From an uncultured Lysobacteraceae bacterium (GTDB lineage: Bacteria > Pseudomonadota > Gammaproteobacteria > Xanthomonadales > Xanthomonadaceae), in the NCBI GenBank assembly GCA_946482565.1, contig CAMLSB010000011.1:1-25919 (forward strand): 25,919 nt of DNA, read 5' to 3'. Below, in pieces: positions 9,974 through 25,919 of this stretch. The notes below the pieces were generated by a model, which did no database searches, was not told the DNA's origin, and saw only the letters and a list, made by a program, of their open reading frames with translations. Within the stretch, counting starts at the first letter, position 1. Each line of letters opens with the position of its first letter. The position numbers and the translations under genes were made by a program.

Positions 9974-12000
9974 CCCCGATCATGCGCGCGCACGTCGACG
10001 ACGCCCGCGCGCGCGCGGTGCATTCGCTCCGATTCCGAAGTGACATCGAGGGACTGCGGGCAGTTGCAATCCTGCTGGTGGTTTGTGCCCATGCCGGGGT
10101 GCCCTGGATGGCCGGCGGATTCGTGGGAGTGGACGTCTTCTTCGTCCTATCGGGCTACCTGATCACGGGCTTGCTGCTCGACGAATTCCGGCGCAGCAAT
10201 GGCATTGATTTCATTGCCTTCTACGCGAGGCGATTTCAACGCTTGCTGCCGGCGCTGCTGCTCACCGTGGCCTGCACCTGCGTTGCTGCATATGTGCTCC
10301 TCGCCCCGTTCGAGCAGGCAGAACAGGCATCGGCCGCAGGAAGCGTCGTCGCGTGGGTGAGCAACTTCTTCTACGCATTCCAGAAGCTCGACTACTTCGG
10401 TTCAGCGGCAAAGACGAGCCTCTTCCTCCACACATGGTCGCTGGGCGTCGAGGAGCAGTTCTATTTGCTGTGGCCGGCGCTGATGCTGCTGTTGCTTTGG
10501 CCTGGCCGTGCGCCCGGCGACAAGCGCGCCTCGAAGAGGCTGCAAATCGGCATGGCATGCGTTGTCGTCATTTCGTTTGTGGCCGGCACCTCGCTTACCT
10601 ATGTCCACCCGGAATTCGGGTTTTACATGGTGTTCGCGCGCGCTTGGGAGTTCGCGCTCGGGGCATTGGTGCTGCTCGCGCTGCCCGAAGGGAGTGGCAA
10701 GCCGGGCAGGACGCCGCGCTTCCTGGCGGGTTGGGTCGGCCTTGGCGCTATCGTCGGTGCGGGATTCCTGCTGGACGGCTTCCGCCCCTACCCCGGCGCG
10801 TGGGCCTTGCTTCCGGCGCTTGGCACGGCGGCCGTCCTTGGTAGCGGGAAAAGCCCGCCCGTGCCCGCGAGCGTCTCTGCTGTCCTGTCGATCACGCCGT
10901 TGCAGGTCATCGGAAGGCTGTCCTATGCGTGGTATCTGTGGCACTGGCCGGTGCTGTTGCTGGGTCGGACGCTCTTCGCGGAGTCCCTCGCCACGAATCT
11001 CCTGCTGGCGGTCGGCTCGCTGGCAGTCGCGTGGGTGTCGTACCGCTACGTCGAGTCTCCACTGCGCAAGGCAAAGTCGGTCCGTGGACATCCACGCGCC
11101 ACGCTCCTCGCGGGGATATTGCTCATCCTTGCCGCGTTCACGGCCAGCAGGGACTGGCGCGAAGCGGCGAGGTCGTGGTCACGCGATCCGACGCAGTTGC
11201 CGGTGGCGAAGATCCGCCATGATCGGCCGGTGATCTACAAGCTCGGCTGCGACGAGTGGTATCGCGACTCCAGGGTCAAGATCTGCGCTTTCGGCGACCA
11301 GGACGCGGCGCATACCGCCGTACTCATGGGCGACAGCATTGCCGGCCAGTGGTTTCCCGCCATACAGAAGATTTTCGTTGGCGCCGGCTGGCGCTTGCTC
11401 GTGATCAACAAATCGTCGTGTCCGATGGTCGATGCGCCGATCTTCTACGAATGGATCGGCCGCGAATACGTGGAATGCGAGGAGTGGCGTAACCGTGCCA
11501 TCGCGATGCTGCCATCCCTCGAGCCCGACGTGGTCCTCGTGAGTTCCAGAGGTACGTATCCACTCACCCACGAGCAATGGCGGGACGGCACGGAGCGCGT
11601 GCTGCGCGGCATTTCCGAAGCGACCACCCGCATCGGAGTGCTGCAACCCACACCGCTCATTTCCTTCGACCCGGTGCTGTGCCTCAACAGGAACCGATGG
11701 CGGCCGGAACCCCTGCGAGGGTTCTTCCACTGCACGGCACCAGCTTCGTCGTCCGAGATGAACGCGATTCGCGACGCACTGGCCATCGCGGTCGCTCGCG
11801 TCCCGAACGCGCACCTGATCGACCTGACGGAAGTCATCTGCCCGCATGGACGATGCGATGCGCAGCGCGGCGGAATGCTCCTGTATCGGGATGACCACCA
11901 CCTTGCGCCGGAATTCGTGATGGCCTTGACGTCTACCCTGGAAGCCTCACTGGCCAGGACAGGCCTCGCCCCCGACTCCGCGTTCCCCGGCACCAAGTGA
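9952..12000 (+). CDS. AT3-SGNH membrane O-acyltransferase (second of a tandem pair)
   Basis: Paralogue of the preceding gene, 682 aa, with long identical runs (for example FVGVDVFFVLSGYLITGLLL and MGDSIAGQWFPA). It keeps R-X10-H in the AT3 domain, the SGNH nucleophile Ser462 (GDS) and the Asp647-X2-His650 pair (DDHHLA), so both enzymes look active. Three starts are possible: ATG 9952 (AGG about 6 bases upstream, overlapping the previous gene by 22 bases), TTG 9970, which aligns with the ATG of the first copy behind the same GGCGGA and forms a TTGA overlap with the previous stop, and ATG 9982. The longest form is listed, but TTG 9970 is a serious rival. The codons and sugar-binding face have diverged from the first copy, so acceptors may differ. 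The stop codon lies in a perfect 15-bp inverted repeat. Confidence 0.92.
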   Translation: MLSGGSLTPIMRAHVDDARARAVHSLRFRSDIEGLRAVAILLVVCAHAGVPWMAGGFVGVDVFFVLSGYLITGLLLDEFRRSNGIDFIAFYARRFQRLLPALLLTVACTCVAAYVLLAPFEQAEQASAAGSVVAWVSNFFYAFQKLDYFGSAAKTSLFLHTWSLGVEEQFYLLWPALMLLLLWPGRAPGDKRASKRLQIGMACVVVISFVAGTSLTYVHPEFGFYMVFARAWEFALGALVLLALPEGSGKPGRTPRFLAGWVGLGAIVGAGFLLDGFRPYPGAWALLPALGTAAVLGSGKSPPVPASVSAVLSITPLQVIGRLSYAWYLWHWPVLLLGRTLFAESLATNLLLAVGSLAVAWVSYRYVESPLRKAKSVRGHPRATLLAGILLILAAFTASRDWREAARSWSRDPTQLPVAKIRHDRPVIYKLGCDEWYRDSRVKICAFGDQDAAHTAVLMGDSIAGQWFPAIQKIFVGAGWRLLVINKSSCPMVDAPIFYEWIGREYVECEEWRNRAIAMLPSLEPDVVLVSSRGTYPLTHEQWRDGTERVLRGISEATTRIGVLQPTPLISFDPVLCLNRNRWRPEPLRGFFHCTAPASSSEMNAIRDALAIAVARVPNAHLIDLTEVICPHGRCDAQRGGMLLYRDDHHLAPEFVMALTSTLEASLARTGLAPDSAFPGTK

Positions 12001-12118: not shown

Positions 12119-12136
12119 TTGGCACGCAATATGCAT
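12119..12136 (+). promoter_or_regulatory. Sigma-54 promoter of pilA
   Basis: TTGGCACGCAATATGCAT has the GG (-24) and GC (-12) doublets separated by exactly ten bases and a TGGCAC core, matching the RpoN consensus. Transcription should start near 12146, giving a leader of about 90 bases that ends in GAGGGGAG six or so bases before the pilA ATG. pilR in this window supplies the expected activator. Confidence 0.85.
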
Positions 12137-12236: not shown

Positions 12237-12674
12237 ATGAAGAAGTTGCAGCAAGGCTTCACCCTGATCGAACTGATGATCGTGATCGCGATCCTCGGCA
12301 TCCTGATGGCCATCGCGATTCCGGCCTACCAGGACTACACCGTCCGCGCGAAGATCTCGGAGGCCATGCAGATGGCTGCCCCGGCGAAGCTCGCCGTGGC
12401 CGAGACGCTGTCGTCGAGCGGCACCATGCCGACCACGAACTCGAAGGCTGGTTACAGCTTCCCGGGCCAGACCACCTATGTGACCTCGGTCAACATCGGC
12501 GCTGGCGGCGACGTCACCGCGATCGTCCGGAACACGGGCAACACGACGGCTGACGGCAAGAAGCTCGTGCTTCACCCGAAGCGCGTCGGCGGCGCGACGA
12601 GCGCCCAGCTCGAATGGGACTGCAAGAGCAGGAGCGACATCCCGACGAAGTACCTGCCGTCGCAGTGCCGCTGA
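12237..12674 (+). CDS. pilA: Type IV major pilin PilA
   Basis: Type IVa pilin, 145 aa. The short leader MKKLQQG ends in the glycine cut by prepilin peptidase PilD, and the mature chain begins with Phe that is then N-methylated. The hydrophobic helix [27 protein letters not shown] contains the conserved Glu5. The globular part ends in a disulphide-bounded loop between Cys in WDCKSR and the penultimate Cys (LPSQCR). It is translated from a strong GAGGGGAG ribosome site and transcribed from a sigma-54 promoter, with an intrinsic terminator 33 bases after the stop. The segment [12 protein letters not shown] is rich in Ser/Thr and could be modified. The adjacent GT-C gene suggests glycosylation, but this is inference. 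Confidence 0.97.
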
Positions 12675-12706
12675 TTCCCGTTACGTAGGAACATGTTGCA
12701 AAATCG

Positions 12707-12737
12707 GACCCCGGCGCTTGCGTCGGGGTCTTTTTTT
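12707..12737 (+). terminator. Intrinsic terminator of pilA
   Basis: A 10-bp stem with one G-U pair (GACCCCGGCG / CGTCGGGGTC), a CTTG loop, then seven T. It is the clearest terminator in the window. Six G directly after the T-run (12738-12743) act as the ribosome site of the next gene, so the following operon depends on read-through or on its own promoter. Confidence 0.92.
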
Positions 12738-12746
12738 GGGGGGCAT

Positions 12747-14663
12747 TTGAACCAGCGCTGGCTGCTAGTCGCGGCGATCGCCGTAACGATCCTGGCCTAC
12801 TGGTCGGGATTGGCTGGCCCGCTGATCCTCGATGACCACGCCAACCTCGAGCCCCTTGTCCGCTGGCTCCATGGCGATATCGGCTGGAAGGCCGTCGTCT
12901 TGGGAAACGGGTCCGGCGCGCTTGGCAGGCCCATTGCCATGGCGTCATTCCTGGCGAATGCCGCGACCACCGGCGAAAGCGTATACGCGTTCAAGGCCAC
13001 GAATCTTGCGATCCACCTTGCCGTAGGCGCATCCGTCTACGCGCTGCTTTCCAGCTTGGCGCCGCGGCAGTTCGCTGGAGCGCCGCCTGCCCTGGTGCGC
13101 TGGGCGCCGGTCGCCGCAACCGCCGCGTGGCTGCTGCATCCCGTGCTGGTGAGCACCGTGTTGTACGTCGTGCAGCGCATGGCAATGCTCGCAGCCTTGT
13201 TCACGATGCTCGCGATGTTGTCGTATTTCCATGGCCGCGTCTCGGTGGAACGCGGGCGGCGGCGCAGGGCGTGGGTCCTCATCGGCATCGCCATGCCGGG
13301 TTGCACGCTCCTGGCCGTCCTTTCCAAGGAAAACGGCATTCTGGCGCCTGCGCTTTGTGGGCTCCTCGAATGGCTCGTTTTCGCTCCTCGTGATGGAGAT
13401 CGACGCGGTCGCCTTTCATCTGCCTTCGTTTTCGCCACGCTTGCGTTGCCCGCGTTGACGGCGCTGGCATTGGCGATGGCCGGTGAACACCACGTCGTCG
13501 GTGGCTACGCCAATCGTCCCTACACGCTGGCGGAGCGCCTGCTCACCCAAGCGCGCGTCCTGTGGCACTACGTGGGCGCATTGCTTCTCCCGTACGGGCC
13601 GCGGCTAGGCCTGTATCACGATGATTTCGAAGTTTCCCGCGGCTTGATGGCGCCGACAACGACATTGCTATCGCTGTTCGCGTGGGCCGCCGTCATCTGG
13701 AGCGCGTGGCGGCTTCGCAGGACCGTCCCGGCTTTCTCGCTCGGGCTGGGCATGTTCCTGGTCGGCCAAGCACTTGAGTCGACTGTCTTCCCGCTGCTGA
13801 TGTATTTCGAACATCGACTTTACTTGCCTGCCGCCGGCCTGCTATGGGCAATCGTGGGCCTGGTCGCTTGGGCCGCCCCGCGACTGAATCACAGGATGGA
13901 CTACGGTGGGAGAATCCTGGCGGGGGCGACGGTCGCACTGGTGTGCGTGTTCGCACTGGCCACGGGCGCGCGGGCGGGCGTCTGGCGAAGCCAAGAGGCG
14001 ATCCTGAGCCAGGCGCTCGCGTTCCATCCAGCTTCGCGGTGGATGAGGATGGACTACATCGCCTTCGACATGGGGAAGTCGCCCCCGGACATCGATGGCG
14101 CCATCGCGCACGCCGAGTACCTTTCCAAACGTCCCGACGCCCTCGATCGACGGTTCGGCGCGCTCATGCGACTTTCAATCCGCTGTGTCCAGGGACAACC
14201 GGTATCCCGCGACATGGTTGATGATGTTTTCGGGGGCACGCTGGTCTCGATCGAACCTGACTTGCTGGTCGGGTTTGAATCGCTCGCGGCGCGCACCATC
14301 CGCTCTCCGTGTCCGGGATTCGGACCCATCGAGATGGAACAGGCACTGGCCATCGCGTTGGACCGTAGTACGTTGCCGGAGCGCCACCGGAGCATTTGGC
14401 GGCTCCGTTTCCAGGCTGCCCGGCTCGCCGCAGCCGCGAACCACCCTGACGAAGCACTGAAGCAAGCCAGGCTGGCATGGGCGGGCGGCGCCGGCGGTGG
14501 GGCCGTTGCATTGCTGACCTGCGCATTGCTCATGGGACAGGGCGACAACGCTGGCGCCGCCATCATGCTCGAAAAGGCCGAGCGCCTTGTCGGGGGACAG
14601 GATCAGGCTGGACAGGCGCTGCTGCAGTCCTATCGTGCGGAATTGTCACGACGGGGTTTCTGA
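12747..14663 (+). CDS. GT-C type integral-membrane glycosyltransferase, possible pilin glycosyltransferase
   Basis: Membrane protein of 638 aa with about ten or more hydrophobic helices in residues 1-420 and a soluble, helical, TPR-like C-terminal part (from about SQALAFHPASRWMRMDYIAF). The first periplasmic loop holds Asp29-Asp30 (GPLILDDHANLEPL), the position of the metal-binding acid pair of GT-C enzymes, and later motifs STVLYVVQRMAMLA and YFEHRLYLPAAGLL fit the same family (O-mannosyltransferase/TMTC-like). Members next to pilin genes, such as TfpW in Pseudomonas, glycosylate pilin; the resemblance here is in position and fold class and is not proven. Start: TTG 12747 behind GGGGGG, instead of ATG 12693, whose extension would translate the pilA terminator. 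Confidence 0.75.
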   Translation: MNQRWLLVAAIAVTILAYWSGLAGPLILDDHANLEPLVRWLHGDIGWKAVVLGNGSGALGRPIAMASFLANAATTGESVYAFKATNLAIHLAVGASVYALLSSLAPRQFAGAPPALVRWAPVAATAAWLLHPVLVSTVLYVVQRMAMLAALFTMLAMLSYFHGRVSVERGRRRRAWVLIGIAMPGCTLLAVLSKENGILAPALCGLLEWLVFAPRDGDRRGRLSSAFVFATLALPALTALALAMAGEHHVVGGYANRPYTLAERLLTQARVLWHYVGALLLPYGPRLGLYHDDFEVSRGLMAPTTTLLSLFAWAAVIWSAWRLRRTVPAFSLGLGMFLVGQALESTVFPLLMYFEHRLYLPAAGLLWAIVGLVAWAAPRLNHRMDYGGRILAGATVALVCVFALATGARAGVWRSQEAILSQALAFHPASRWMRMDYIAFDMGKSPPDIDGAIAHAEYLSKRPDALDRRFGALMRLSIRCVQGQPVSRDMVDDVFGGTLVSIEPDLLVGFESLAARTIRSPCPGFGPIEMEQALAIALDRSTLPERHRSIWRLRFQAARLAAAANHPDEALKQARLAWAGGAGGGAVALLTCALLMGQGDNAGAAIMLEKAERLVGGQDQAGQALLQSYRAELSRRGF

Positions 14664-14717
14664 CCCCGGGGGTCGCTTCCGCTGCGGGGACGCGGCATTA
14701 TCTGCAGGGGCTTCGGC

Positions 14718-15617
14718 ATGGCCCTGGCGCCGTGCCAGCATCACAAAAGACCGGAAATGAACCGACATACCCGCGAATCGGTCGTTGTCTACGCGCCCGG
14801 CCCTTCCCTGCGCCGTGGACGCCCGGTGCTGGGCGACATGGCGCGCGACCTCTCGGCGTCCGTGGGCCTCGCGGTCCAGTTTGCGAGCAGCGACTTGCGC
14901 GCGCAATACAGGCAAACCGCGCTCGGGGTGTTTTGGGCCTTCCTGTTGCCGATGGCCAACGCGGCAATCTGGTTGTTCATCCAGTCCACGGGCATCGTGC
15001 ACGTGACTGGGATAGGGCTGCCTTATCCGGCTTACGTCGTAAGCGGCACGTTGCTGTGGTCGATCTTCATGGACGCGGTGAATGCGCCGTTGCAGCAAAC
15101 GCTAGCGGCACGCCAAGTGCTTCCCAAGATCAATTTCCCGAGGGAAGCGCTAATCCTCGCCGGCTCGGCCCAGGCCTTGTTCAATGCGGCGATCAAGTTG
15201 ATCGTCCTGGTCGGCATCCTGGCCGCGCTCGGCGTCACGCCCGGCTCGAGCATCGTGTTGCTCCCGATCACCATCGGTGCGCTGATGCTCGCCGGGACAG
15301 CGATCGGACTACTGCTGACGCCCATCGGCGTCCTGTACCTCGACGTGGGCCGCGGCCTGCCTCTGTTGCTCCAGTTCCTGATGTTCCTCTCGCCAGTCGT
15401 GTACGCCGCGCCGAGGCATGGCTGGCAATCCGTGCTGTTCCAGTTGAACCCGTTGACGACGTTGATCTCCGCTGCCCGCGCCACGCTTATCGGCGAATGG
15501 GACGTGCATTGGGGCGCTTTCGGCGTGATCGCCGCCGGCACCTTCGTGATGTTGTTCCTTGGTTGGATCGCGTATCGCGCGGCAATGCCCATCCTCGTCG
15601 AAAGGATGAGTACCTGA
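14718..15617 (+). CDS. wzm: ABC transporter permease of polysaccharide export (Wzm-like)
   Basis: ABC-2 type membrane subunit, 299 aa, that with Wzt exports an undecaprenol-linked polysaccharide across the inner membrane. The cytoplasmic N-terminal part reads ASSDLRAQYRQTALGVFWAFLLPMANAAIWLFIQ, the family hallmark, and about six membrane helices follow, with LPYPAYVVSGTLLWSIFMDAVNAPLQQT and a C-terminal LNPLTTLISAARATLIGEW segment. Two ATG starts fit: 14718 with AGGGG seven bases upstream, and 14757, which gives a more family-like N-terminus but has little ribosome site. The first is listed. The stop overlaps the wzt start by one base (TGATG). Confidence 0.92.
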   Translation: MALAPCQHHKRPEMNRHTRESVVVYAPGPSLRRGRPVLGDMARDLSASVGLAVQFASSDLRAQYRQTALGVFWAFLLPMANAAIWLFIQSTGIVHVTGIGLPYPAYVVSGTLLWSIFMDAVNAPLQQTLAARQVLPKINFPREALILAGSAQALFNAAIKLIVLVGILAALGVTPGSSIVLLPITIGALMLAGTAIGLLLTPIGVLYLDVGRGLPLLLQFLMFLSPVVYAAPRHGWQSVLFQLNPLTTLISAARATLIGEWDVHWGAFGVIAAGTFVMLFLGWIAYRAAMPILVERMST

Positions 15618-16795
15618 TGCCCGACATCCTGGTCAGCGCGCAGGGGGTGTCGAAGAAATTCTGCAGGAATTTCCGGCGGTCACTATGGTACGGGTTGCAA
15701 GACATCGGCGCCGGCCTCGCCGGCCTGTCCTCGCACCAGGACCAATTGCGCGCCGGGGAATTCTGGGCCGTTGATGACGTCAGCTTCGACCTGGCCAGGG
15801 GCGATTGCCTTGGGCTCGTGGGACGCAATGGCGCGGGCAAGACATCGCTGCTTCGAATGCTCAACGGGCTGATTCGCCCGGACAAGGGGCGGATCGAGAT
15901 GCGCGGGTCGGTAGGCGCGTTGATCGCGCTGGGCGCCGGCATCAAGCCGGTCCTGACCGGGCGCGAGAATATCTACTGCATGGCAGCCCTGAGAGGCATG
16001 TCGCGCAACGAAGCGGCGCGCAAGGTCGATGAAATCGTCGCGTTCTCCGAGCTCGAGGATTTCATCGACTCCCCGATGCAGAGCTACAGCTCGGGCATGC
16101 GCGTGAGGCTCAGCTTCGCCGTGGCATCGGCGCTCGAACCCGACATACTGCTGCTGGACGAGGTACTCGCCGTTGGAGATGCCGCCTTCCGGGACAAGTG
16201 TTACCACCGGATCGCCGAGGTCAGGCGGAACGCGGCGGTGATCTTCGTGTCCCACAACATGGAACAAGTGGCTCGCGTCAGCTCGAGCGCATTGGTGCTG
16301 CACAAGGGGCGGATGCTGCATCTGGGCGACGTGAACGAAGGCATCGTTCGCTACGGGGAAGAGAACGCCGCAGCACCCGGTGCGGAATCCTTCGTGTCGG
16401 TCCATCCCCCTGTCCTGTCCTTCGAAGCGAAACCAGCCCGAAGCGAGGTCTCCTCCGGGGAGCCCCTCCTGATCGACATGGACATCCAGTGCAGCGCCCC
16501 CCTCGCAGGGTTCCAGTTCAAGGTAATGCTTTACAACGCGAGGGGCGAGTTCGCTGCTGACGGCATCGCCGCCGCCGAAGAGCCGATTTTGCCCGGCCGG
16601 AACACGCTGCAGGCCAGGGTGGACTCGATTCCCCTCCGGAATGGCAATTATCGCGTGGCGATCAACTTGATCGATCCCGTCGGGGACCTTGTCGCGTGGT
16701 CTTACAAGCAGCATGCGATCTCGATCAGAGGCGCATACCCCGGCGCGCTGGCCGACTGCCAGCTCAAGGTCGCGTTGCGACCTGGCTCCCCATAG
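15617..16795 (+). CDS. wzt: ABC transporter ATPase of polysaccharide export (Wzt-like, with C-terminal carbohydrate-binding domain)
   Basis: Nucleotide-binding subunit, 392 aa, of the Wzm-Wzt exporter. The ATPase part has Walker A GRNGAGKT (69-76), the signature SYSSGMRVR (from 156), Walker B LLLDE (178-182) and the H-loop His213 (SHN). Residues from about 250 to 390 form an extra beta-rich domain (SVHPPVLSFEAKPARSEVSSGEPLLIDMDIQ onward), matching Wzt C-terminal domains that bind the terminal cap of an O-antigen before export. This type of exporter recognises a capped, lipid-linked polymer made completely in the cytoplasm. The start is coupled to wzm, and the gene ends 21 bases before the TagF-like/GT4 gene. 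Confidence 0.94.
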   Translation: MPDILVSAQGVSKKFCRNFRRSLWYGLQDIGAGLAGLSSHQDQLRAGEFWAVDDVSFDLARGDCLGLVGRNGAGKTSLLRMLNGLIRPDKGRIEMRGSVGALIALGAGIKPVLTGRENIYCMAALRGMSRNEAARKVDEIVAFSELEDFIDSPMQSYSSGMRVRLSFAVASALEPDILLLDEVLAVGDAAFRDKCYHRIAEVRRNAAVIFVSHNMEQVARVSSSALVLHKGRMLHLGDVNEGIVRYGEENAAAPGAESFVSVHPPVLSFEAKPARSEVSSGEPLLIDMDIQCSAPLAGFQFKVMLYNARGEFAADGIAAAEEPILPGRNTLQARVDSIPLRNGNYRVAINLIDPVGDLVAWSYKQHAISIRGAYPGALADCQLKVALRPGSP

Positions 16796-16816
16796 CGCCG
16801 GGAACGGCAAGCATCG

Positions 16817-19255
16817 ATGCGACTTCCGATCACGTTCATCAAGAAGTTGATGACTACCCTCAGGAACATCCCGAGCGCGAATCGCTTGCGAGGTGCGCTT
16901 TACATGGTGTACCGCAAGCACTCGGGGTTGGCGGTCAACACGATACTGCTGGAATCGCACCGCGGTACCGACTTCACTGGAAACCCGCATCACATGGCGA
17001 GGCTCCTCCTTTCGTCGCCGCGGTACGCGCAGTACAGGCTCGTGATCGTGGGTCCGCGCAAGAAGACTTCTTCGTTACGCGTTCCACCGGGTCGCGACGT
17101 CGTGTTCTGCGCAGAAGGCTCCGCGAAATATTGCCGCCACCTCGCGACTGCTGCCCTGCTCGTCAACGACACGACATTCCCCGTCTATTTTTCGCGTCGT
17201 GACGGCCAGAAATACCTCAACACGTGGCACGGAACACCGCTCAAGGCGCTCGGGCGCCGAACGGCCCAGGACACTTTCACCTACTTGTCGAATACGCAGC
17301 GCAACCTGCTGCACGCGACCCACGTGCTCGCGCCCAACCGGCATACCGAAGACGCATTGTTGCGGGATTACATGGTCGAGCGCGCGTGGACGGGAACCGT
17401 CCTGCGTGGCGGGTACCCCCGCAACGACGCGTTGCTGGCCCCTATCGGACCGATGCTGTCCTCCGACCAGCACCTGCATGTAGCGTTCATGCCCACGTGG
17501 CGCGGCACGCTTTCCAGCAAAGATGCGGCCAACCGCAAGCTCCTGGACGACACCGCATCGCTGCTTGCGCGTCTCGACGACGCCCTGCCGGAACGTATCG
17601 TTGTCTGGGTTCGGCTGCATCCGCTCGTCGGGCAGGCGCTGGACCTTTCTGGCTATCGCAAGGTACGTCCGTTCCCGGTTGGCGCCGAGAGTTACGACCA
17701 TCTCGGCCGCTGTGATGCGCTGGTCACCGATTACTCCTCGGTACTTTTCGACTTTGCGGCGAGCGGACGGCCGGTACTGCTCCACATGCCTGACCTGGCG
17801 ACCTATCGCGAGGAACGCGACTTCTGCCTCGATCCTGAGGGGCTCCCGTTCCCGCGCTTCTCCGACACGGAATCGCTGATTGCGGGGATATCCGCACTGC
17901 AACCCGGGCAACAGGCCCGTTTCCCGGATTTCATTGCCACTTACTGCCCATACGACGACGGCAATGCGACGGCAAAGCTCTGCGCGGAATTCGTGGAAGG
18001 CGTCGATGCGATTCCCAAGCGCGAGGTAAGGCCTTCGCCCGAGCGGGTCAACCTGTTGCTTTTCGCCGGCTCGTTCCTCAACAACGGCATAACCACCTCG
18101 CTGAAATGCCTCGTCGCCTGCATCGATCGTTCCAAGTACAACATTTTCATATGCCTTGGCGCCAATGCCGCGGAAGCGAACGGGGGCGCCTGGTTCCACC
18201 AACTCGACCAGGACGTCGGCTTCATCGTCACCCGCAACTGGCTGGGGCTGACCCCGCTGGAAGCCATTGGCTTCGCGCTTCGGGACCTGTTCGGCCTGCG
18301 CTGGAATGCTCATGGTCGCTTCCTGCAGCGTGTCTGGACCCGGGAATACCGCAGGTTGTTCGGCTCGGCCAGGTTCGACGCGTTCGTGCATTTCACCGGC
18401 TACGATCGTCGCGCCGCATTCCTCATGCTCGGTGCCGCCTCGACGCGAGTGATATTCGTCCACAACGAGATGTTGCAGGAGACCCGATCCAAGGCAATGG
18501 ATGCACGTGCACTTCGCATGGCATACGACCTGGCCGACCGGATCGCGGTAGTGAGGCCAGGGCTGGAACGTGGCTACGACGAAGCTATCCAGAAGATCAG
18601 CCACAAGGTGATCCACGTGGCCAACACCGTCCCGACGGATTGCATCGAACGCAGCAGGCAGCCCCTCGAAAGGGTGCTCCACTCGACGACTAGCCCCGGC
18701 GATCGGGAACGATTCGTCAACATCATGTCGAGAGAAGCGTTCACGTTCGTAAACCTTGCGCGGTTTTCGCGCGAAAAAGGCCAAGTCAGGCTGATCGAGG
18801 GATTCGAACAGGTGTATGCCCGGGAGTCGCATGCGCGACTCGTCATCCTCGGGGGCTATGGGCCCGAGCTAGACGCAGTCCGCCTCCGTGCGCAGCAGTC
18901 CACGGCCCGCGAGGCAATCTACGTCGGCTTGGGCTCCACGAATCCTTTCCCGCTCCTCGCGAAGGCGGGCGCCTTCGTCCTGCCCTCGATATACGAAGGG
19001 TTGCCGCTGGTGCTGTTCGAATGCCTGGCTCTTGGGGTGCCCATCATCGCGACGGAAATCCCCGGCCCGGCCGAATTCCTCGCCCAAGGCTATGGATTAC
19101 TGGTCGAAAACAGTACGCGAGGGATCGTCGAAGGGCTCAATGCGGCCCTCGCCGGCCAATTGCCGACGAAGCCCTATGATCTCCACGCACACAACCGGGA
19201 AGCTGTCGCCATGTTCCATCGCGCCATCCAGCCGACCGCACCGGGAGCCGAATGA
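16817..19255 (+). CDS. Two-domain polymerase: TagF-like glycerophosphotransferase fused to a GT4 glycosyltransferase
   Basis: Predicted cytoplasmic, membrane-associated enzyme of 812 aa. The N-terminal half (about 1-400) matches CDP-glycerol glycerophosphotransferases of wall teichoic acid synthesis: catalytic-type motifs Trp-His-Gly 137-139 (LNTWHGTPLKALG), GYPRND 199-204, PTWRG and Asp305-Tyr-Ser-Ser (TDYSSVLFDF). The C-terminal half (about 410-800) is a GT-B retaining glycosyltransferase with NLARFSREKGQ and the E-X7-E motif at Glu727/Glu735 (EGLPLVLFE). Such a fusion would alternately add glycerol phosphate from CDP-glycerol and a sugar from a nucleotide-sugar; comparable fusions are capsule polymerases in Neisseria and Actinobacillus. 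It overlaps tagD by four bases (ATGA). ATG 16817 is the first good start after wzt. Which sugar is used is unknown. Confidence 0.88.
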   Translation: MRLPITFIKKLMTTLRNIPSANRLRGALYMVYRKHSGLAVNTILLESHRGTDFTGNPHHMARLLLSSPRYAQYRLVIVGPRKKTSSLRVPPGRDVVFCAEGSAKYCRHLATAALLVNDTTFPVYFSRRDGQKYLNTWHGTPLKALGRRTAQDTFTYLSNTQRNLLHATHVLAPNRHTEDALLRDYMVERAWTGTVLRGGYPRNDALLAPIGPMLSSDQHLHVAFMPTWRGTLSSKDAANRKLLDDTASLLARLDDALPERIVVWVRLHPLVGQALDLSGYRKVRPFPVGAESYDHLGRCDALVTDYSSVLFDFAASGRPVLLHMPDLATYREERDFCLDPEGLPFPRFSDTESLIAGISALQPGQQARFPDFIATYCPYDDGNATAKLCAEFVEGVDAIPKREVRPSPERVNLLLFAGSFLNNGITTSLKCLVACIDRSKYNIFICLGANAAEANGGAWFHQLDQDVGFIVTRNWLGLTPLEAIGFALRDLFGLRWNAHGRFLQRVWTREYRRLFGSARFDAFVHFTGYDRRAAFLMLGAASTRVIFVHNEMLQETRSKAMDARALRMAYDLADRIAVVRPGLERGYDEAIQKISHKVIHVANTVPTDCIERSRQPLERVLHSTTSPGDRERFVNIMSREAFTFVNLARFSREKGQVRLIEGFEQVYARESHARLVILGGYGPELDAVRLRAQQSTAREAIYVGLGSTNPFPLLAKAGAFVLPSIYEGLPLVLFECLALGVPIIATEIPGPAEFLAQGYGLLVENSTRGIVEGLNAALAGQLPTKPYDLHAHNREAVAMFHRAIQPTAPGAE

Positions 19256-19644
19256 TGATCCGGGTACTCACTTTCGGCAGTTTCGACGTCCTGCACATCG
19301 GCCACCTGCGTATCCTCGAGCGCGCCGCGTCGTTGGGGCACCACCTAACGGTCGGCATCTCGACCGACGCGCTGAACCTGTCCAAGAAGAACCGTCTTCC
19401 CGTGTATCCAGAAGAGCAGAGACTATCGCTTGTCGCAGCGTTGCGGTGCGTCGACAACGTCTTCCTCGAGCGATCGCTCGAGGCGAAGGCCGACTACATC
19501 CGAGGATATTCAGCCGATATTTTGGTCATGGGCGACGATTGGCAAGGCAGGTTCGACGAGTTCGCCACGCTGTGCAAGGTCGTTTACCTGCCGCGCACGC
19601 CCGCCATCTCGACGACAGCCCTCATCGAGAAGATCAGGGGTTGA
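19252..19644 (+). CDS. tagD: Glycerol-3-phosphate cytidylyltransferase
   Basis: Makes CDP-glycerol from CTP and sn-glycerol 3-phosphate, the activated donor used by TagB/TagF enzymes. The 130 aa are the normal size for TagD. The nucleotidyltransferase HIGH motif is His15-Ile-Gly-His18, and the second CTP-binding signature appears as RTPAISTT (115-122), a small variant of RTxGISTT with Ala in place of the Gly. The start is the first of two adjacent ATGs at 19252, in an ATGA overlap with the upstream fusion gene. Its presence is the best proof that the neighbouring TagF-like proteins really use CDP-glycerol. FMN/riboflavin or ethanolamine relatives of this fold are less likely given that context. 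Confidence 0.93.
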   Translation: MMIRVLTFGSFDVLHIGHLRILERAASLGHHLTVGISTDALNLSKKNRLPVYPEEQRLSLVAALRCVDNVFLERSLEAKADYIRGYSADILVMGDDWQGRFDEFATLCKVVYLPRTPAISTTALIEKIRG

Positions 19645-19645
19645 C

Positions 19646-20920
19646 GTGGAGCAGGAGGCGACACGGCGCGCACGCGGCAGGATCGGGCGACGCCGTCTGG
19701 CCGCCATGCTGGAGGCGACCAGCGCACTCCTCGGATGGGCGCTCGCCTGGCCGCTTACGTTGCTGGTGAGACGCGATGCTGATCTCGTGGTGTTCTGGGG
19801 CCGGGATGGTGGAAAGTTCCTAGACAACTGCAAATATCTCTACATCGCGACCCGAACGCACAAGCCATGGTTGCGCGCCGCGTTTCTAGGCACGATCCCG
19901 TCCGCCTGCGATATTCAGGACGGCGTCGAAGCCGGCGTGCGTGGCCTGCGCGCGAAATGGCTCTGGCTGCGCGCGGGAACCATCATCGTCGACAGTGTCG
20001 ATTGGCAGCGTGGCATGCGCGTCGGCGGATCGCAGGGCGCCCGCATCGTGCAACTTTGGCATGGCATCCCGCTAAAGCAGGTGCAATTGGGCCGAATCAA
20101 GGCTCGACGCGCTGGGCGGTGGACCTTGGAAGCTGCCGCTTTCCAGTTGTATCTCTACGTAGTCGGCCGCCTGGCGGAGGTGGACTGGTTACTCAGCACC
20201 AGCAAGGCGATCACCGAGCGTGCGTTCTCGTCCTCCTTCCGGTACGAAAACGTCTCGCATGCCGGATACCCACGCAATGACGTGCTCTTGCGCGAACCGT
20301 CGCCAATGGAGATGGCCGGGATCGACCTCGCCGCGAAGAGGGCCATCGCGGAGCACCGGCGCAAGGGGGGGCACGTCATGCTCTATGCGCCCACGTTTCG
20401 CGAGGGATTCCCCGATCCATTCGCACCCGGCGGCGTCGATCTTGCCCGGCTTGCGCAAGCCGCGTGCACCGCCGACCTTCTGCTCCTGGTCAAGCTTCAT
20501 CCCTGGATGCGTGGCAAGTCGTTCGAAGCGGCCCCGCCCGGCATCCGGTTCGTCACGGCCGATTCCGACATCTATCCGCTGCTTCGCGACGTCGATCTGC
20601 TGGTGACGGACTACTCCTCGGTCTTTTTCGACTTCCTGCTCCTGGACAGGCCGGTGCTGTTCTTTCCTTACGACCTCGACGCGTACGTCGGGGGAGATAG
20701 ACCTCTCTATTTCGATTACGGCGACATGACCCCGGGGCCGAAGTATTCCGACGTTTCGACGCTGGCCGAGGCATTGCCACGCGCGATCCAGGAAGGGGAC
20801 GCGTGGCGCGGGGAGCGCGCGCGCGTCCGCTCCCTCGTCTTCGACCACCACGACGCGCATTCCGCGGAACGACTGCTGGACGAACTTTTCCCCGCCGGAA
20901 GCCCTCGATTCAGGGCCTGA
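19646..20920 (+). CDS. TagB/TagF-like CDP-glycerol glycerophosphotransferase
   Basis: Predicted to transfer glycerol phosphate from CDP-glycerol to a lipid-linked acceptor. The 424-aa protein has one short hydrophobic stretch near the N-terminus (LLGWALAWPLTLLV) that may hold it at the membrane. Motifs of the family: Trp138-His-Gly (LWHGIPLKQVQLG), GYPRND 207-212, PTFRE, LKLHPWM and Asp322-Tyr-Ser-Ser (TDYSSVFFDFLLLDRPV). The start is GTG 19646, one base after the tagD stop with AGGGG five to six bases upstream; the frame stays open further up but only as a tagD shadow. A TagB-like priming role (one unit added to the linkage sugar) or a TagF-like polymerising role are both possible. Its 3' end overlaps the convergent gene by 11 bases. 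Confidence 0.9.
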   Translation: MEQEATRRARGRIGRRRLAAMLEATSALLGWALAWPLTLLVRRDADLVVFWGRDGGKFLDNCKYLYIATRTHKPWLRAAFLGTIPSACDIQDGVEAGVRGLRAKWLWLRAGTIIVDSVDWQRGMRVGGSQGARIVQLWHGIPLKQVQLGRIKARRAGRWTLEAAAFQLYLYVVGRLAEVDWLLSTSKAITERAFSSSFRYENVSHAGYPRNDVLLREPSPMEMAGIDLAAKRAIAEHRRKGGHVMLYAPTFREGFPDPFAPGGVDLARLAQAACTADLLLLVKLHPWMRGKSFEAAPPGIRFVTADSDIYPLLRDVDLLVTDYSSVFFDFLLLDRPVLFFPYDLDAYVGGDRPLYFDYGDMTPGPKYSDVSTLAEALPRAIQEGDAWRGERARVRSLVFDHHDAHSAERLLDELFPAGSPRFRA

Positions 20921-22073
20921 GCGAGCGGGTGAGGCGCTGCACGCATCGTTCCGCCGATTTGCCATCAGCCATGCCGCCGTAAAGGCGATCCCGGAGTTCC
21001 TTCATTCGGGTGCCATGTTCGGCCATGAACGCTGAAGGATCGGCGACGGACGCCTCCAGCGCCTGCAGCAATTCCTCCACGGACGCCGCCAGTTGCCCAT
21101 AACGCCACGACGCATCGAGGGTGAGCCCCTTGGCGAACGGCGCCGGGACATCGAGGAAAATGCCAGGGCGATCGAGCAAGAGGAAGTCGAAAGCTATGGA
21201 CGACCAGTCGCACACCAGTACGTCCACTACGAGGAGCAGCCGCTCCGTCCATGGATAGGTGGCAAATGGAAGATCGACGATACCCGGGCGCATCGCCTGA
21301 TGACGCGCGCCTTGGTTCAGGTGATCCCGAACGATGAAGATGGCGCCATGGCGCGCCGCGAAGTCCGACATCGCGTCGAAGAAGTCTTCCGGGCTGACCC
21401 CGAATGGATAGCCGCTGCGCCCCGGGTCGTCCTGCCGCCACGTCGGCGCGAAGAGCACCACTTTCGCGCCCGGAGGAATCCCGAGTTCGCGGCGTACTTC
21501 CGACGCATCCGTCTTGCCGTCCACCAGGATGTCCGTCCTGGCATAGCCGGTCGCGAACACCCGCAACGGCGAGAAGCCGAAACGCTGCGCGTAGATCTCG
21601 GCAAGGAAAGGAGAAGCAACCCATATCTCATCGAAACGGCGCTGGACGCTGAAATCGTCCCGGTCAAACCCCTTGAACGGAATCCCGTGCCATGCATCGA
21701 AGAACTTCAAATCGGTCAGGGCCTGCATGGGGCGAATCGAATGCAGCCCGTGATCGCTGATGACGGCATCCGCGCTTGCCAACCAGGCCACGGCGGGCCA
21801 GGAAATCGCGAAAATGGCGCGCTCTCCCTTCGAACGAAGACGCCAGCAATAAGCGAGGTCCATCGTCAGGAAACATGATTCGAAATCGGAACCGTGTTCT
21901 TCCAGGGCGCGATACGTCGGCAACAAGTTCCCCGCCAGCTTGTGCCCGTAGAAAATCACCCTCTGTCGCGGATTCTTCCTGGCGAACGGGCGCAAAAGGA
22001 TCGCGACGGCCACGATCCCGGTAAAAGCGCCCAGCAACAGCCAATGCAAGGGGTTGCGCTTGTCGATTTTCAC
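20910..22073 (-). CDS. Membrane-anchored TagB/TagF-like glycerophosphotransferase
   Basis: Third enzyme of this family in the window, 387 aa. An N-terminal membrane helix (HWLLLGAFTGIVAVAILL, about 10-28) precedes the GT-B-like catalytic part with Trp128-His-Gly (AWHGIPFKGF), Gly176-Tyr-Ala-Arg-Thr-Asp, APTWRQ and Cys-Asp289-Trp-Ser-Ser. The last two motifs differ from the GYPRND and TDYSS of the two plus-strand enzymes, so it belongs to another branch and may use another acceptor or another CDP-alditol such as CDP-ribitol. The start is GTG 22073, in a GTGA overlap with the stop of the upstream GT4 gene. It is the last gene of the minus-strand operon and meets the plus-strand operon tail to tail with an 11-bp overlap. 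Confidence 0.87.
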   Translation of the reverse strand: MKIDKRNPLHWLLLGAFTGIVAVAILLRPFARKNPRQRVIFYGHKLAGNLLPTYRALEEHGSDFESCFLTMDLAYCWRLRSKGERAIFAISWPAVAWLASADAVISDHGLHSIRPMQALTDLKFFDAWHGIPFKGFDRDDFSVQRRFDEIWVASPFLAEIYAQRFGFSPLRVFATGYARTDILVDGKTDASEVRRELGIPPGAKVVLFAPTWRQDDPGRSGYPFGVSPEDFFDAMSDFAARHGAIFIVRDHLNQGARHQAMRPGIVDLPFATYPWTERLLLVVDVLVCDWSSIAFDFLLLDRPGIFLDVPAPFAKGLTLDASWRYGQLAASVEELLQALEASVADPSAFMAEHGTRMKELRDRLYGGMADGKSAERCVQRLTRSLRP

Positions 22074-23275
22074 CGCAATTGGTCCAGCAGGTCCGCGTAT
22101 CCGTTCGCAACGAAATCCCAATCGAATTTCCGCTTCAGGTTCGCTCCCTGGCGCAGCGCGTCCGCGGCGGCGCGCTCCCGGGCCAGAACCAAACGAACCA
22201 CCTTTTCCGCGATGGAGCGTGGATTCGCGGGCTCCGCGCAAAACTCCGGCCATGCCCCTTCGAACACGTCCTTCACAGCCGGAATCCTGGTGGTCACCAC
22301 CGGACATCCACAGGCCAGCGCTTCGACCATGACGAGCCCCAATCCATCGCGATCGCCGCTTTCGGCTTGGACGAATGGGGCAACCAAGGTCGTGGCGCGC
22401 TGGTAGAACCCAGGCAGCCGTGACTGCGGGACTGCGCCCTGGAACGCAACGCGTTCCGACATGCCCAGGCGTCGCGCTCGATCGCGCAATTCGGCTTCCT
22501 CGGGACCGAATCCCACGACCGTCAGCCGCACGTCCGGGACCGCCGAAGCAATCTCCGGAAGTGCATCGAGCAGATAACGAAGCCCCTTCTTCTCGACCAG
22601 CCTACCGACGAACAGCAATTCGGACCGGGCCCGCGTTACCTCGGGTGCAGGCCGGAAAGCGGAAAACGCCACGCCCATCGGCTTGACGAGGACAGGAACC
22701 CCGTCGCCGGCCAGCTCGCCAACTGCTTCCTGCATTGCAGTACCTACGACGGTGATCGCCGCGGCTCGCTTCGCCACTTCCCGCTTCAGCCACCGAAAGG
22801 GCGCGCTCCCGAACGTATACAGATCACCGCCATGGATCGTCAGCAGCAGCGGCGGCCGCGGGTGGCCCGCCATCCGCGCGAGCACCGCAACGGATCCTTG
22901 CGGAATCAACCAATGGGCATGGACGGCATGGAATTTGCCGCGCCTGATCTGTCGAGCCGTTGCAAGCAGCATCCCGAGGAGGAATCCTGGAACAAGAAGC
23001 CATTTCCATGGATGACGGCGCAGGTTCGCGACCATTCCTCCATCGTTCACCAGCGTTTCCATTGCCCGCGGCGCATACCGGAAACGCGATACGAGTACGC
23101 CATCCATCTCTTCGGAAAGCTTGGCCAAGGGTGCGCTCGGCGCGAGCACCGCCACGTCGAACCTGTCGGCCAGCCTGCGGCAAAGTTCGTGGACGAATCC
23201 TGGCTCGTGGTCACCCATCCACCGCGGATAGGTGGAGGCAAGCACCAGCAGGCGAGGTTTGTGATCGACGCTCAC
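22070..23275 (-). CDS. Family 4 glycosyltransferase
   Basis: GT-B retaining glycosyltransferase, 401 aa, cytoplasmic and probably membrane-associated. The N-terminal acceptor domain starts RLLVLASTYPRWMGDHEPGFVHELCRRLADRFDV and contains HAHWLIPQG. The C-terminal nucleotide-sugar domain has LLFVGRLVEKKGLRYLLDALPEI and ESGDRDGLGLVMVEALACGCPVV, with Asp in place of the first Glu of the E-X7-E motif, a variation seen in the family. The start is GTG 23275 in a GTGA overlap with the methyltransferase stop; an ATG at 23317 is in frame but would overlap by 46 bases. The GTGA junction recurs at its own stop with the next gene. Donor sugar unknown. Confidence 0.9.
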   Translation of the reverse strand: MSVDHKPRLLVLASTYPRWMGDHEPGFVHELCRRLADRFDVAVLAPSAPLAKLSEEMDGVLVSRFRYAPRAMETLVNDGGMVANLRRHPWKWLLVPGFLLGMLLATARQIRRGKFHAVHAHWLIPQGSVAVLARMAGHPRPPLLLTIHGGDLYTFGSAPFRWLKREVAKRAAAITVVGTAMQEAVGELAGDGVPVLVKPMGVAFSAFRPAPEVTRARSELLFVGRLVEKKGLRYLLDALPEIASAVPDVRLTVVGFGPEEAELRDRARRLGMSERVAFQGAVPQSRLPGFYQRATTLVAPFVQAESGDRDGLGLVMVEALACGCPVVTTRIPAVKDVFEGAWPEFCAEPANPRSIAEKVVRLVLARERAAADALRQGANLKRKFDWDFVANGYADLLDQLR

Positions 23276-24027
23276 GAGCGGGTCTTGTGGCGCAGCAGGT
23301 AAACGTGCGTGGGACAAATCGAACGCAGGCGCCAGACAAGATGCTCCGGAAGCAGGTTCGCCACCTTCGCCCCCAGTGACGGCCTGGCTTCGAGCGCCAC
23401 GAGGCTGCGAAGCGCTTCAACGCAGATGTTCCTGGACTCGAGCTGTGCCTCGTCCATGAGCAACTCGATGGCCGCCATCTCCAGGGGTTCGCAATCGTAG
23501 GCTGTTTTGTCGAGGCGCCAGAGCGAGAGGTATCCGCTCCGCATCCCCTTTGGCAAGCACGACAGGAATGGCACGTGGAAATGCGGCTCCACCAGCTGCC
23601 AGCGATTCGGCGAAGCCAGGTACGCGACTCCCCGGGGTGATAGCACCCGCGAGATCTCCCGGAGATGCTTGGCCTGATCCGCCCACTCGCCCACGTGCTC
23701 GAGCACATGGTTGCTGAGAACGACATCGAAGCTCCCGTCTTCGTAAGGCAACTCGACCCCGGCCACGAGTCGAAAACGGTATCCCGCGAAGACACGGCGC
23801 TGGTCGACCACATCGACGGCATCGACGTCGAACCGGGGGTGCGCCAGGCCACCGAAATGGCTTGCGATCGCTCCCGAACCCGTCCCGATTTCAAGCAGGC
23901 GCAAAGGGCCGCGGGCGTCGCTGTCGAGCGGAAGGAGAGTCCGGATCTTCTCCGCCTTCGGGCGCCTGCCGGGAATATTCAGTGAGGCATGGGGCGCCCG
24001 CTCGCGAGTACTAGGATCGCTTGTCAT
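23272..24027 (-). CDS. SAM-dependent methyltransferase (class I)
   Basis: A 251-aa class I methyltransferase of the Methyltransf_11 type. Motif I (RLLEIGTGSGAIASHFGG) binds S-adenosylmethionine, followed by FDVDAVDV and the post-motif SFDVVLSNHVLEHVGEW. In an O-antigen or capsule operon such an enzyme may methylate a sugar or the growing end; terminal methylation is a known chain-stop signal for Wzm/Wzt systems, but no kinase domain is present here. The ATG at 24027 overlaps the GT2 gene by 17 bases; a GTG two codons upstream (24033) is also possible. The stop is coupled to the GT4 gene. Confidence 0.85.
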   Translation of the reverse strand: MTSDPSTRERAPHASLNIPGRRPKAEKIRTLLPLDSDARGPLRLLEIGTGSGAIASHFGGLAHPRFDVDAVDVVDQRRVFAGYRFRLVAGVELPYEDGSFDVVLSNHVLEHVGEWADQAKHLREISRVLSPRGVAYLASPNRWQLVEPHFHVPFLSCLPKGMRSGYLSLWRLDKTAYDCEPLEMAAIELLMDEAQLESRNICVEALRSLVALEARPSLGAKVANLLPEHLVWRLRSICPTHVYLLRHKTRS

Positions 24028-24892
24028 CGGCACGCCGTTCCGATCGCACCGCTTGGTACGTCAGACTCGTGATCTGCTCCGAGATCAATCCGATCAGGAA
24101 AACGATCACCGCTGCGCTGAACAGAAGCACGCTCATGTTCGTGAACCGATGGTAGTGCCAAAACGTGTACGCGTAGTACCCCGCCCCCAGCGCGAAGAAC
24201 CCGAACCCCACCGGCGCGAACAGCTTCAACGGCGAATACAGCGTCGCGATCCGGAAAATGATCAGCAGGAACCGCAACCCGTCCCGTACCGGCTTGATGT
24301 GGCTGCGCCCGATCCGCGCCGCCACCGGAATCGGCACGTACGCCACCGGGTACGCGCTGCGGAAGAACGCCATCGTGCTCGTGGTCGGATAGCTGAAGCC
24401 GTTCGGCAGCAGGTGCAGGAACTGGCGAAAGCGCTCTGCGCGCGCCACGCGGAAGCCCGAGGTGAGGTCGGCGATGCGGTGGCCAGTCATCCAGCTGGCC
24501 AAGCGGTTGTAGAAACGGTTGGCGAGACCGCGGCCCATGTTGGCCTGGCCGCCGGCGCCGCGCGCGCCGACCACCATGTCGTAGCCCTCGTCCAGCTTCG
24601 CGAGCAGCGCGGGCAGGCTCGCGGCGTCGTGCTGGCCGTCGGCGTCCATGAACACGAGCACGTCGCCGCTGGCGGCGCGCGCGCCGCGCTTGATCGCCGC
24701 GCCGTTGCCCATCGAGTACGGGGTGCCCAGCACGTGGGCGCCATGCGCGGCGGCGACGGCGGCGGTTTCGTCGGTCGAGCCGTCGTCCACCACGATCACT
24801 TCGGCGTCGGGAAAGCGTTCGCGCAGCCCCGGCAGGGTGCGGCGCAGGCCTTCGGCCTCGTTCTTGGCGGGCAGGATGATGGACAGCTGCAT
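24011..24892 (-). CDS. Family 2 glycosyltransferase with two C-terminal membrane helices (DPM synthase/GtrB-like)
   Basis: Membrane-anchored GT-A glycosyltransferase, 293 aa. The N-terminal domain MQLSIILPAKNEAEGLRRTLP leads to the nucleotide-binding VVDDGST (Asp36-Asp37) and the metal-binding DADGQHD (Asp83, Asp85). Two hydrophobic helices follow (about 225-250 and 257-282). This layout is that of polyprenyl-phosphate sugar synthases such as dolichol-phosphate mannose synthase, GtrB or ArnC, which charge undecaprenyl phosphate with a sugar for use by periplasmic GT-C enzymes. A partner GT-C is present (12747-14663). ATG 24892 gives the conserved start; the frame is open upstream only as a pilB shadow. 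First gene of the minus operon. Confidence 0.92.
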   Translation of the reverse strand: MQLSIILPAKNEAEGLRRTLPGLRERFPDAEVIVVDDGSTDETAAVAAAHGAHVLGTPYSMGNGAAIKRGARAASGDVLVFMDADGQHDAASLPALLAKLDEGYDMVVGARGAGGQANMGRGLANRFYNRLASWMTGHRIADLTSGFRVARAERFRQFLHLLPNGFSYPTTSTMAFFRSAYPVAYVPIPVAARIGRSHIKPVRDGLRFLLIIFRIATLYSPLKLFAPVGFGFFALGAGYYAYTFWHYHRFTNMSVLLFSAAVIVFLIGLISEQITSLTYQAVRSERRADDKRS

Positions 24893-25013: not shown

Positions 25014-25036
25014 AGCCGGCCATGGGCCGGCTCTAC
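25014..25036 (-). repeat. GTAG-type REP-like palindrome in the pilB leader
   Basis: Third copy of the 23-base unit at 1920-1942 and 6929-6951; on the minus strand it reads GTAGAGCCGG and so on, with a perfect palindrome AGCCGGCC/GGCCGGCT around a short centre. It lies 19 bases before the probable TTG start of pilB. The gap between GT2 and pilB (24893-25054) holds nothing else that could be supported. Confidence 0.7.
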
Positions 25037-25054
25037 ATCAGAGGGTTTTCGGCC

Positions 25055-25919
25055 TTGTCCAGCGCCTTGCACGCCAACCTGGTCGGCATCACCGGCATCG
25101 CCCGGCGCCTGGTCATGGACGGCGCACTCGCCGAGGACGCCGCCCGCGAGGCCATGGCCGGTGCCACCCAGGCCCGCAAGCCGATCGCCGCCTACCTCAT
25201 CGAGAACAAGCTGGTCGCGCCGGTGCAGCTGGCGGCGGCCAATTCGATCGAGTTCGGCATGCCGATCTTCGACCTGGCGTCGATGGACGCGGCGCAATCC
25301 GCGATCTCGCTGGTCAGCGAGGAGCTGGTGCGCAAGCATTCGGCGATCCCGCTGTTCAAGCGCGGCAGCCGGCTGTACGTGGGCATCGCCGATCCGACCA
25401 ACACCCGCGCGCTCGACGAGTTCAAGTTCGCGACCAACCTCGCCGTCGAGGCGATCCTCGTCGACGAGGACCGGATCAAGCCCACCATCGACAAGTGGCT
25501 GGAGTCGGCGGCGTCGATGTCGGACACGATGTCGGATGCCGAGGGCGACGAGGACTTCGAGAACCTCGACGTCAGCGGCGGCGACGACGACATGGACGGC
25601 GATGCCGGCGGCGGCGTCGACGCCAAGGGCGACGACACGCCGGTCGTGAAGTTCGTCAACAAGGTGCTGGTGGACAGCATCCGCCGCGGCGCCTCCGACA
25701 TCCACTTCGAGCCCTACGAAAACGACTACCGGGTGCGCCTGCGCATCGACGGCATCCTCAAGCAGGTGGCGCGCGCGCCGGTGAAGCTGAGCCCGCGCAT
25801 CGCCGCGCGCCTGAAGGTGATGTCGCAGCTCGACATCGCCGAAAAGCGCGTGCCGCAGGACGGCCGCATCAAGCTCAACCTGAGCAAGACCAAGCAGATC
25901 GACTTCCGCGTCAGCACGC
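25055..25919 (+). CDS. pilB: Type IV pilus assembly ATPase PilB (N-terminal part, runs off the window)
   Basis: Extension ATPase of the type IV pilus. About 288 residues are present: the N-terminal T2SSE_N/MshEN-like domain (NLVGITGIARRLVMDGALAEDAAREAM, then EFGMPIFDL and LVSEELVRKHSAIPLFKRGSRLYVGIADPTN), an acidic Gly/Asp linker (about residues 155-190), and the start of the ATPase part (DTPVVKFVNKVLVDSIRRGASDIHFEPYE, then SQLDIAEKRVPQDGRIKLN). Walker motifs lie outside. The preferred start is TTG 25055, with AGAGGG nine bases upstream and the N-terminal length usual in xanthomonads. An in-frame ATG at 25022 lies in the REP-like unit and would add 11 residues of repeat-derived sequence. The polysaccharide locus separates it from pilA. 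Confidence 0.95.
   Translation, partial: MSSALHANLVGITGIARRLVMDGALAEDAAREAMAGATQARKPIAAYLIENKLVAPVQLAAANSIEFGMPIFDLASMDAAQSAISLVSEELVRKHSAIPLFKRGSRLYVGIADPTNTRALDEFKFATNLAVEAILVDEDRIKPTIDKWLESAASMSDTMSDAEGDEDFENLDVSGGDDDMDGDAGGGVDAKGDDTPVVKFVNKVLVDSIRRGASDIHFEPYENDYRVRLRIDGILKQVARAPVKLSPRIAARLKVMSQLDIAEKRVPQDGRIKLNLSKTKQIDFRVST

Follow-up and report, generated by a model that had tools for sequence, protein, structure and literature searches.

In Pseudomonas aeruginosa, the type IV pilin gene pilA is directly followed by an accessory transferase gene, tfpO or tfpW, with a Rho-independent terminator in between. The transferase varies by pilin group, TfpO adding O-antigen units and TfpW arabinofuranose homopolymers; a terminator between pilin and accessory genes is also described for Xanthomonas campestris pv. 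vesicatoria (PMC11841053, available portion). Actinobacillus pleuropneumoniae forms a teichoic-like capsule with CpsA, CpsC and CpsD, comprising a PF04464 primer transferase, a LicD protein (CpsC) and a polymerase of TagF-like and GT4 parts. The TMTC/PMT protein O-mannosyltransferases combine a GT-C domain with tetratricopeptide repeats (TPRs), and full-length prokaryotic TMTC homologues of unknown role are mentioned in the available part of PMC7801869. Here we describe the interval between pilA and pilB on a DNA stretch of 25,919 nucleotides from an uncultured Lysobacteraceae bacterium (contig CAMLSB010000011.1; hereafter the window, to which all coordinates refer; G numbers denote genomes, L numbers loci). 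With a probability of roughly 60 %, we read it as a pilin-accessory glycosylation island with a teichoic-type cassette, whose glycerol-phosphate polymer or oligomer ends at least partly on the pilin.

The pilA-pilB interval is a variable glycan island

On the plus strand, from 12747 on, pilA is followed by a GT-C/TPR gene, wzm, wzt, tagF1, tagD and tagF2; the minus-strand part, up to 24892, consists of tagF3 and genes for a GT4 glycosyltransferase, a methyltransferase and a GT2 glycosyltransferase (Table 1). A sequence-only reading had placed TagD, three TagB/TagF-like proteins, Wzm, Wzt with a C-terminal domain, GT4 modules, a GT2 and a methyltransferase between pilA and pilB, and all of these were found. 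What it had missed was the pil setting, namely the GT-C gene adjoining pilA and the variability of the interval.

The first gene after pilA encodes a protein in which a GT-C fold is joined by TPRs, as in the TMTC O-mannosyltransferases of eukaryotes. Its frame is open from 12693, TTG at 12747 being the likelier start. An acidic pair lies in the first outer loop, as in TMTC and PMT enzymes, TPR chains aligned across residues ~445-655, in the C-terminal position typical of TMTC, and precomputed annotations record TPR families for some homologues. Foldseek found nothing below E 0.001 and put TPR proteins at the top; a second structure aligner placed GT-C enzymes first for the same protein. A Pfam search gave no match, hence no Wzy_C domain (PF04932), and PF04932 was matched at the island position in 0 of 10 relatives examined, which sets the protein apart from the Wzy_C oligosaccharyltransferases PglL, PilO, TfpO and WaaL. 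Of 395 genomes in the family to which the Pseudoxanthomonas G001 belongs, 180 contained a GT-C relative; we take this family to be the Lysobacteraceae. In all 30 loci returned the relative adjoined pilA. The window thus has a transferase gene beside pilA (12237-14663) and a terminator between the two, as in P. aeruginosa. Unlike the P. aeruginosa cassettes, its transferase is a TMTC-type GT-C protein with TPRs (TfpW was not directly compared by sequence), and a complete cassette for glycan synthesis and export, TagD and TagF included, precedes pilB. Unlike the TMTC and PMT enzymes, the protein is bacterial and adjoins a pilin; it is a candidate for the transfer of a glycan to this pilin, donor and acceptor being deduced from fold and position. 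In seven loci (L123, L126, L129, L130, L133, L183, L199), two to three GT-C/TPR genes stood in tandem, often with two to three pilA genes, possibly reflecting a pairing of pilin and transferase.

Forty-six islands were fetched by their GT-C or TagF matches and are thus not a random sample; 42 of them entered a census, with 36 stretches reaching pilB. A GT2 gene lay beside pilB in 32 of these 36; the other four (G232, G065, G168, G161) had neither GT2 nor any cassette gene detectable with our probes. The stretches of G001 and G105 stop short of pilB yet hold GT2, the adjacency to pilB being visible for G001 in L081, while those of G328, G067, G210 and G162 held neither pilB nor GT2. The interval spanned 2,151 to 17,038 bases with a median of 10,259 (35 measured). 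A terminator followed at least one pilA gene in 43 of 45 islands (46 stretches, one without a pilA match) and 48 of 67 pilA genes, compared with 1.8 % in mononucleotide shuffles. Since chance alone would give 2.1 such sites per region in the loose scan of the window, the weight of the terminator in the window comes from its strong stem and this recurrence. The sigma-54-like element 5' of pilA was the sole match in the window, but at least one match also appeared in 27 of 100 shuffles, and by itself the element is poor evidence.

Between these borders the islands differed in content. A UDP-GlcNAc 2-epimerase was encoded in L119 and L121, Wzx-type flippases in L122 and L176, and a PglK/MsbA-type exporter with LicD and a MobA/IspD-like nucleotidyltransferase in the G090 island (L169). 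In the G045 island, a phosphoenolpyruvate phosphomutase is fused to a cytidylyltransferase (L171:6639-7985), making a phosphonate head group on the glycan possible. In many genomes across the family, pilA and pilB enclose such a variable glycan island. The recurring frame of pilA, terminator, GT-C/TPR gene, GT2 gene and pilB argues for pilin glycosylation, with the variable part supplying glycan and exporter.

Alternatively, pilA-pilB could merely be a recombination hot spot, hosting genes for an O-antigen- or capsule-like glycerol-phosphate polymer that a WaaL encoded elsewhere ligates to lipid A-core. In its favour, each of the 10 relatives examined has at least one Wzy_C-type ligase elsewhere in its genome. 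Against it stands the GT-C gene, which was kept beside pilA in every island with detected cassette genes and also forms minimal islands of pilA, GT-C and pilB, so that it is no part of a polymer cassette.

The cassette points to glycerol phosphate

All three TagF proteins retain both catalytic histidines of TagF-like enzymes (named in the available part of PMC5974469) and exceed the PF04464 cut-off; absence of the CDP-glycerol (cytidine diphosphate glycerol) site, named beforehand as an argument against a glycerol-phosphate polymer, was not found at the sequence level. TagF1 has 812 amino acids and aligned with A. pleuropneumoniae Cps3D (8qoy) at 326 bits over query residues 32-803. Like CpsD, it fuses a TagF-like domain to a GT4-type GT-B domain. 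The alignment starts at Cps3D residue 378, past the Cps3D TPR, and TagF1 itself has no TPR domain, whereas the CpsD homologues analysed in PMC11666461 carry one in the same chain; TagF1 is thus a relative of the CpsD type and not a full member. This 812-residue form of the polymerase is rare in the genomes searched at class level: of 369, two gave a match at E<=1e-60, each time to a long open frame (1268 and 1314 aa). In the genus with the closest pil genes, TagF1 matches were found in 5 of 9 genomes and covered the GT4 part only. The capsule system differs further in that its LicD protein is present in the sister island of G090, not in the window, and in the exporter and pil location of the window genes.

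TagD scored 118 bits against TIGR01518, below the curated cut-off of 165, and is named TagD-like with a putative function. Together with the other head-group genes in sister islands (LicD with MobA/IspD-like in G090, phosphomutase with cytidylyltransferase in G045), this score leaves some room for a CDP-alcohol other than CDP-glycerol as substrate of the TagD- and TagF-like enzymes, a question separate from the destination of the product. We hold such a head group for quite improbable: TagD aligned over its full length with the solved 1coz and keeps both signature stretches, HxGH and RTxxIST, and Cps3D, the nearest solved relative of TagF1, uses CDP-glycerol (PMC11666461). The product probably contains glycerol phosphate.

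Export and destination of the glycan

Wzm/Wzt pairs are classical O-antigen exporters. The Wzt of the window is full-length, carries a C-terminal domain and is paired with Wzm, as in exporters with a glycan-binding Wzt. Wzm reached 31 bits with a galactan Wzm model, far below its cut-off of 380; elsewhere, relatives of Wzm were matched in 9 of 10 genomes but weakly, with 82 bits at best, and in no case at the island position. The earlier proposal of a glycerol-phosphate surface polymer exported by an O-antigen-type ABC transporter thus stands as to the coupling of a CDP-glycerol enzyme, TagF-like transferases and exporter; the product may be destined for the pilin. Precedent for Wzm/Wzt export followed by a proposed transfer to protein comes from S-layer glycosylation by the slg clusters of Geobacillus and Paenibacillus (available part of PMC2943079). 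These clusters differ in being Gram-positive, in using a Wzy_C-type transferase and in their acceptor, an S-layer protein and not a pilin. A role of the methyltransferase as chain cap recognised by Wzt was considered and dropped, as a similar methyltransferase occurs in six loci (L171, L175, L186, L192, L199, L200) where no Wzm/Wzt pair was found.

Distribution of the TagF genes ties part of the cassette to the pil island. At E<=1e-20, five of 397 order-level genomes contained TagF3 (G045, G224, G090, G209, G040), and all five copies lie between pilA/GT-C and gt2/pilB, which speaks against a mere hot spot. All five islands have a PglK/MsbA-type exporter (G090 as query, the other four at 62-64 % identity; type assigned by Pfam in L169, L171 and L175). 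This exporter is absent from the window, where Wzm/Wzt and the TagF1 polymerase take its place. In a sixth island, that of G316, a Wzx-type flippase accompanies a TagF2-like protein (34 %), and tagD was also found in the islands of G090 and G224 (70 % and 66 % identity). The one-strand block tagF3-gt4-(mt)-gt2 of the window recurs, complete or partial, in G045, G040, G209, G090 and G224.

This block also bears on the idea of two separate products, in which GT2 and the GT-C protein place a plain monosaccharide or short glycan on the pilin and the glycerol-phosphate genes serve a lipopolysaccharide or capsule polymer. GT2 resembles ArnC (9hwj, 65 bits) and dolichol-P-mannose synthase (5mlz, 50 bits), which are usual partners of PMT/ArnT-type GT-C enzymes, and the islands with epimerase and GT2 are similar to monosaccharide systems. 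Three-component GT-C systems with a lipid-phosphate-sugar donor also modify exported O-antigens (PMC11127046, accessible part). Because at least one glycerol-phosphate gene, tagF3, is linked to the island's GT2 end by this block, we regard two separate products as improbable.

Genes of this kind are not confined to pil loci. In three other genomes of the family, G227 (L182), G068 (L181) and G136 (L178), TagD/TagF genes lie away from pilA and have a Wzt homologue no more than 20 kb distant, in G136 also a Wzm homologue. These loci favour a cassette independent of pili, and they soften the claim that the combination is new to the group, since it is not peculiar to the window. In addition, judging from the sizes of source sequences, relatives of Wzt and TagF1 seem to move together, a further point for an O-antigen-like cassette: 10 pairs of equal size were observed and 0.25 expected at offset lengths (input 120 GT-C, 120 Wzt and the first 60 listed TagF1 matches). 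For GT-C and Wzt relatives, three such coincidences compared with 0.96 expected, offset lengths giving as many as 6, which is not significant; one size, 16,263, was shared by relatives of all three proteins. Weighing these points against the TagF3 and GT-C positions, we consider the lipid A-core-linked polymer at a hot spot unlikely.

The non-pil loci apparently direct teichoic-like surface polymers of their own; among L182, L181, L178 and L145-L151, several have long TagF1-like polymerases (open frames of 1298-1509 aa). PF04464 matched in 231 of 395 genomes of the family, most listed matches being partial with ~30 bits. A match of >100 bits was present in 27 genomes: six lie in pil islands, in eight no pilA or GT-C was matched within the 20-kb context, and the remaining 13 were outside this context count. 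A scan seeded with TagD found pilA or pilB (tblastn) in none of the 80 relatives retained out of 134; TagD relatives being common at other loci, their distribution is uninformative about the pilus. In Halieaceae, tagD and tagF3 stand convergently among glycosyltransferase-like genes (L001:10001-11552, L005:9959-11407, L006:9989-11654), with no pil gene detected nearby.

The analysis shows the gene content, the catalytic motifs, the folds of the GT-C/TPR protein and of Wzt, and an island architecture that recurs. For the glycosylation island we propose the following scheme, in which we infer donor and acceptor of each enzyme, polymer length and pilin attachment. TagD would provide CDP-glycerol, while GT4 and other transferases would assemble a lipid-linked primer, TagF2 and TagF3 contributing glycerol-phosphate priming or decorating units. 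TagF1 may lengthen the chain by alternating addition of sugar and glycerol-3-phosphate, like Cps3D, and Wzm/Wzt with its glycan-binding domain would export it. In the periplasm, the TMTC-like protein could transfer glycan to the pilin, be it the lipid-linked chain as such or an initial sugar that GT2 has placed on polyprenyl phosphate, and at least part of the glycerol-phosphate product would thereby reach the pilus. Within this reading, a long polymer, made by the Cps3D-type polymerase, exported by Wzm/Wzt and transferred by the GT-C/TPR protein, is the likelier form, though taken alone less likely than not; a shorter glycerol-phosphate glycan on the pilin is the less likely form.

Features of the window

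Left of pilA lie, farther out, sucCD, pilS and pilR, followed by the two AT3-SGNH acyltransferases (Pfam), which may O-acylate the pilin glycan. A gene with 58 % identity to acyltransferase 1 adjoins pilA in G040 (L172, L220). An open frame of 121 aa 3' of pilR (7257-7622) has no Pfam match and is possibly no gene.

Table 1 Features of the pilA-pilB interval and its left flank
Feature	Position	Strand	Evidence and remarks
AT3-SGNH acyltransferase 1	7904..9973	+	PF01757 and PF19040; outer island part, tentative
AT3-SGNH acyltransferase 2	9982..12000	+	PF01757 and PF19040; tentative island member
Sigma-54-like element 5' of pilA	12120..12134	+	match of TGGCAC-N5-ATGC type
pilA, major type IV pilin	12237..12674	+	PF00114, 75 bits; N-terminal methylation motif
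Rho-independent terminator, immediately 3' of pilA	12706..12738	+	11-bp stem, 8 GC pairs, T run
TMTC-like GT-C glycosyltransferase with C-terminal TPRs	12747..14663	+	candidate pilin glycan transferase
wzm, ABC exporter membrane subunit	14757..15617	+	PF01061, 26.5 bits, slightly below cut-off; immediately 5' of wzt
wzt, ATPase with glycan-binding-type C-terminal domain	15617..16795	+	full-length match
tagF1, bifunctional polymerase (TagF-like and GT4), Cps3D relative	16817..19255	+	PF04464, 193 bits; PF00534
tagD, putative glycerol-3-phosphate cytidylyltransferase	19252..19644	+	1coz, 118 bits
tagF2, PF04464 transferase	19646..20920	+	193 bits; Staphylococcus epidermidis TagF, 78 bits
tagF3, PF04464 transferase	20910..22073	-	133 bits
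GT4 glycosyltransferase	22070..23275	-	PF13692, 112 bits; PF00534, 104 bits
Class I methyltransferase	23272..24027	-	PF08241, 56 bits
GT2, polyprenyl-phosphate-sugar synthase type	24011..24892	-	PF00535, 107 bits; end gene of island
pilB, type IV pilus assembly ATPase	25022..25919, continues past window edge	+	PF00437, PF05157

Implications for the family

Variability of the pilA locus in xanthomonads has been described before (PMC4235730, PMC4584326), and the pilB-pilC interval of X. vesicatoria similarly holds a pilin, an EamA transporter and two glycosyltransferases in strain-variable form (PMC10333488); the available parts of these three papers give no interpretation as a glycan island and do not refer to glycerol phosphate, nor are phosphopolyol genes mentioned for the X. 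vesicatoria interval. Among the top-ranked results of a literature search there was no paper on type IV pilins bearing a glycerol-phosphate polymer, nor one treating this island as a glycan locus. If the long-polymer form of our reading is true, the pilus would be polyanionic and polymer-coated, and the window would carry one allele of a modular typing island for pilin glycans found widely across the family. On our reading in general, the pilA-pilB interval of the Lysobacter/Xanthomonas family would be a typing locus for pilin glycans, in which exporters of the PglK/MsbA, Wzx and Wzm/Wzt types are exchanged around a recurring transferase. TMTC-type protein glycosylation would be present on a bacterial pilus, and teichoic-acid chemistry would be joined to type IV pili. 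Phages use pili as receptors, and glycosylation of pilins is described as evasion of phage binding in P. aeruginosa (PMC11841053, available portion); the island would thus be a testable cause of the variability of the pilA locus in xanthomonads.

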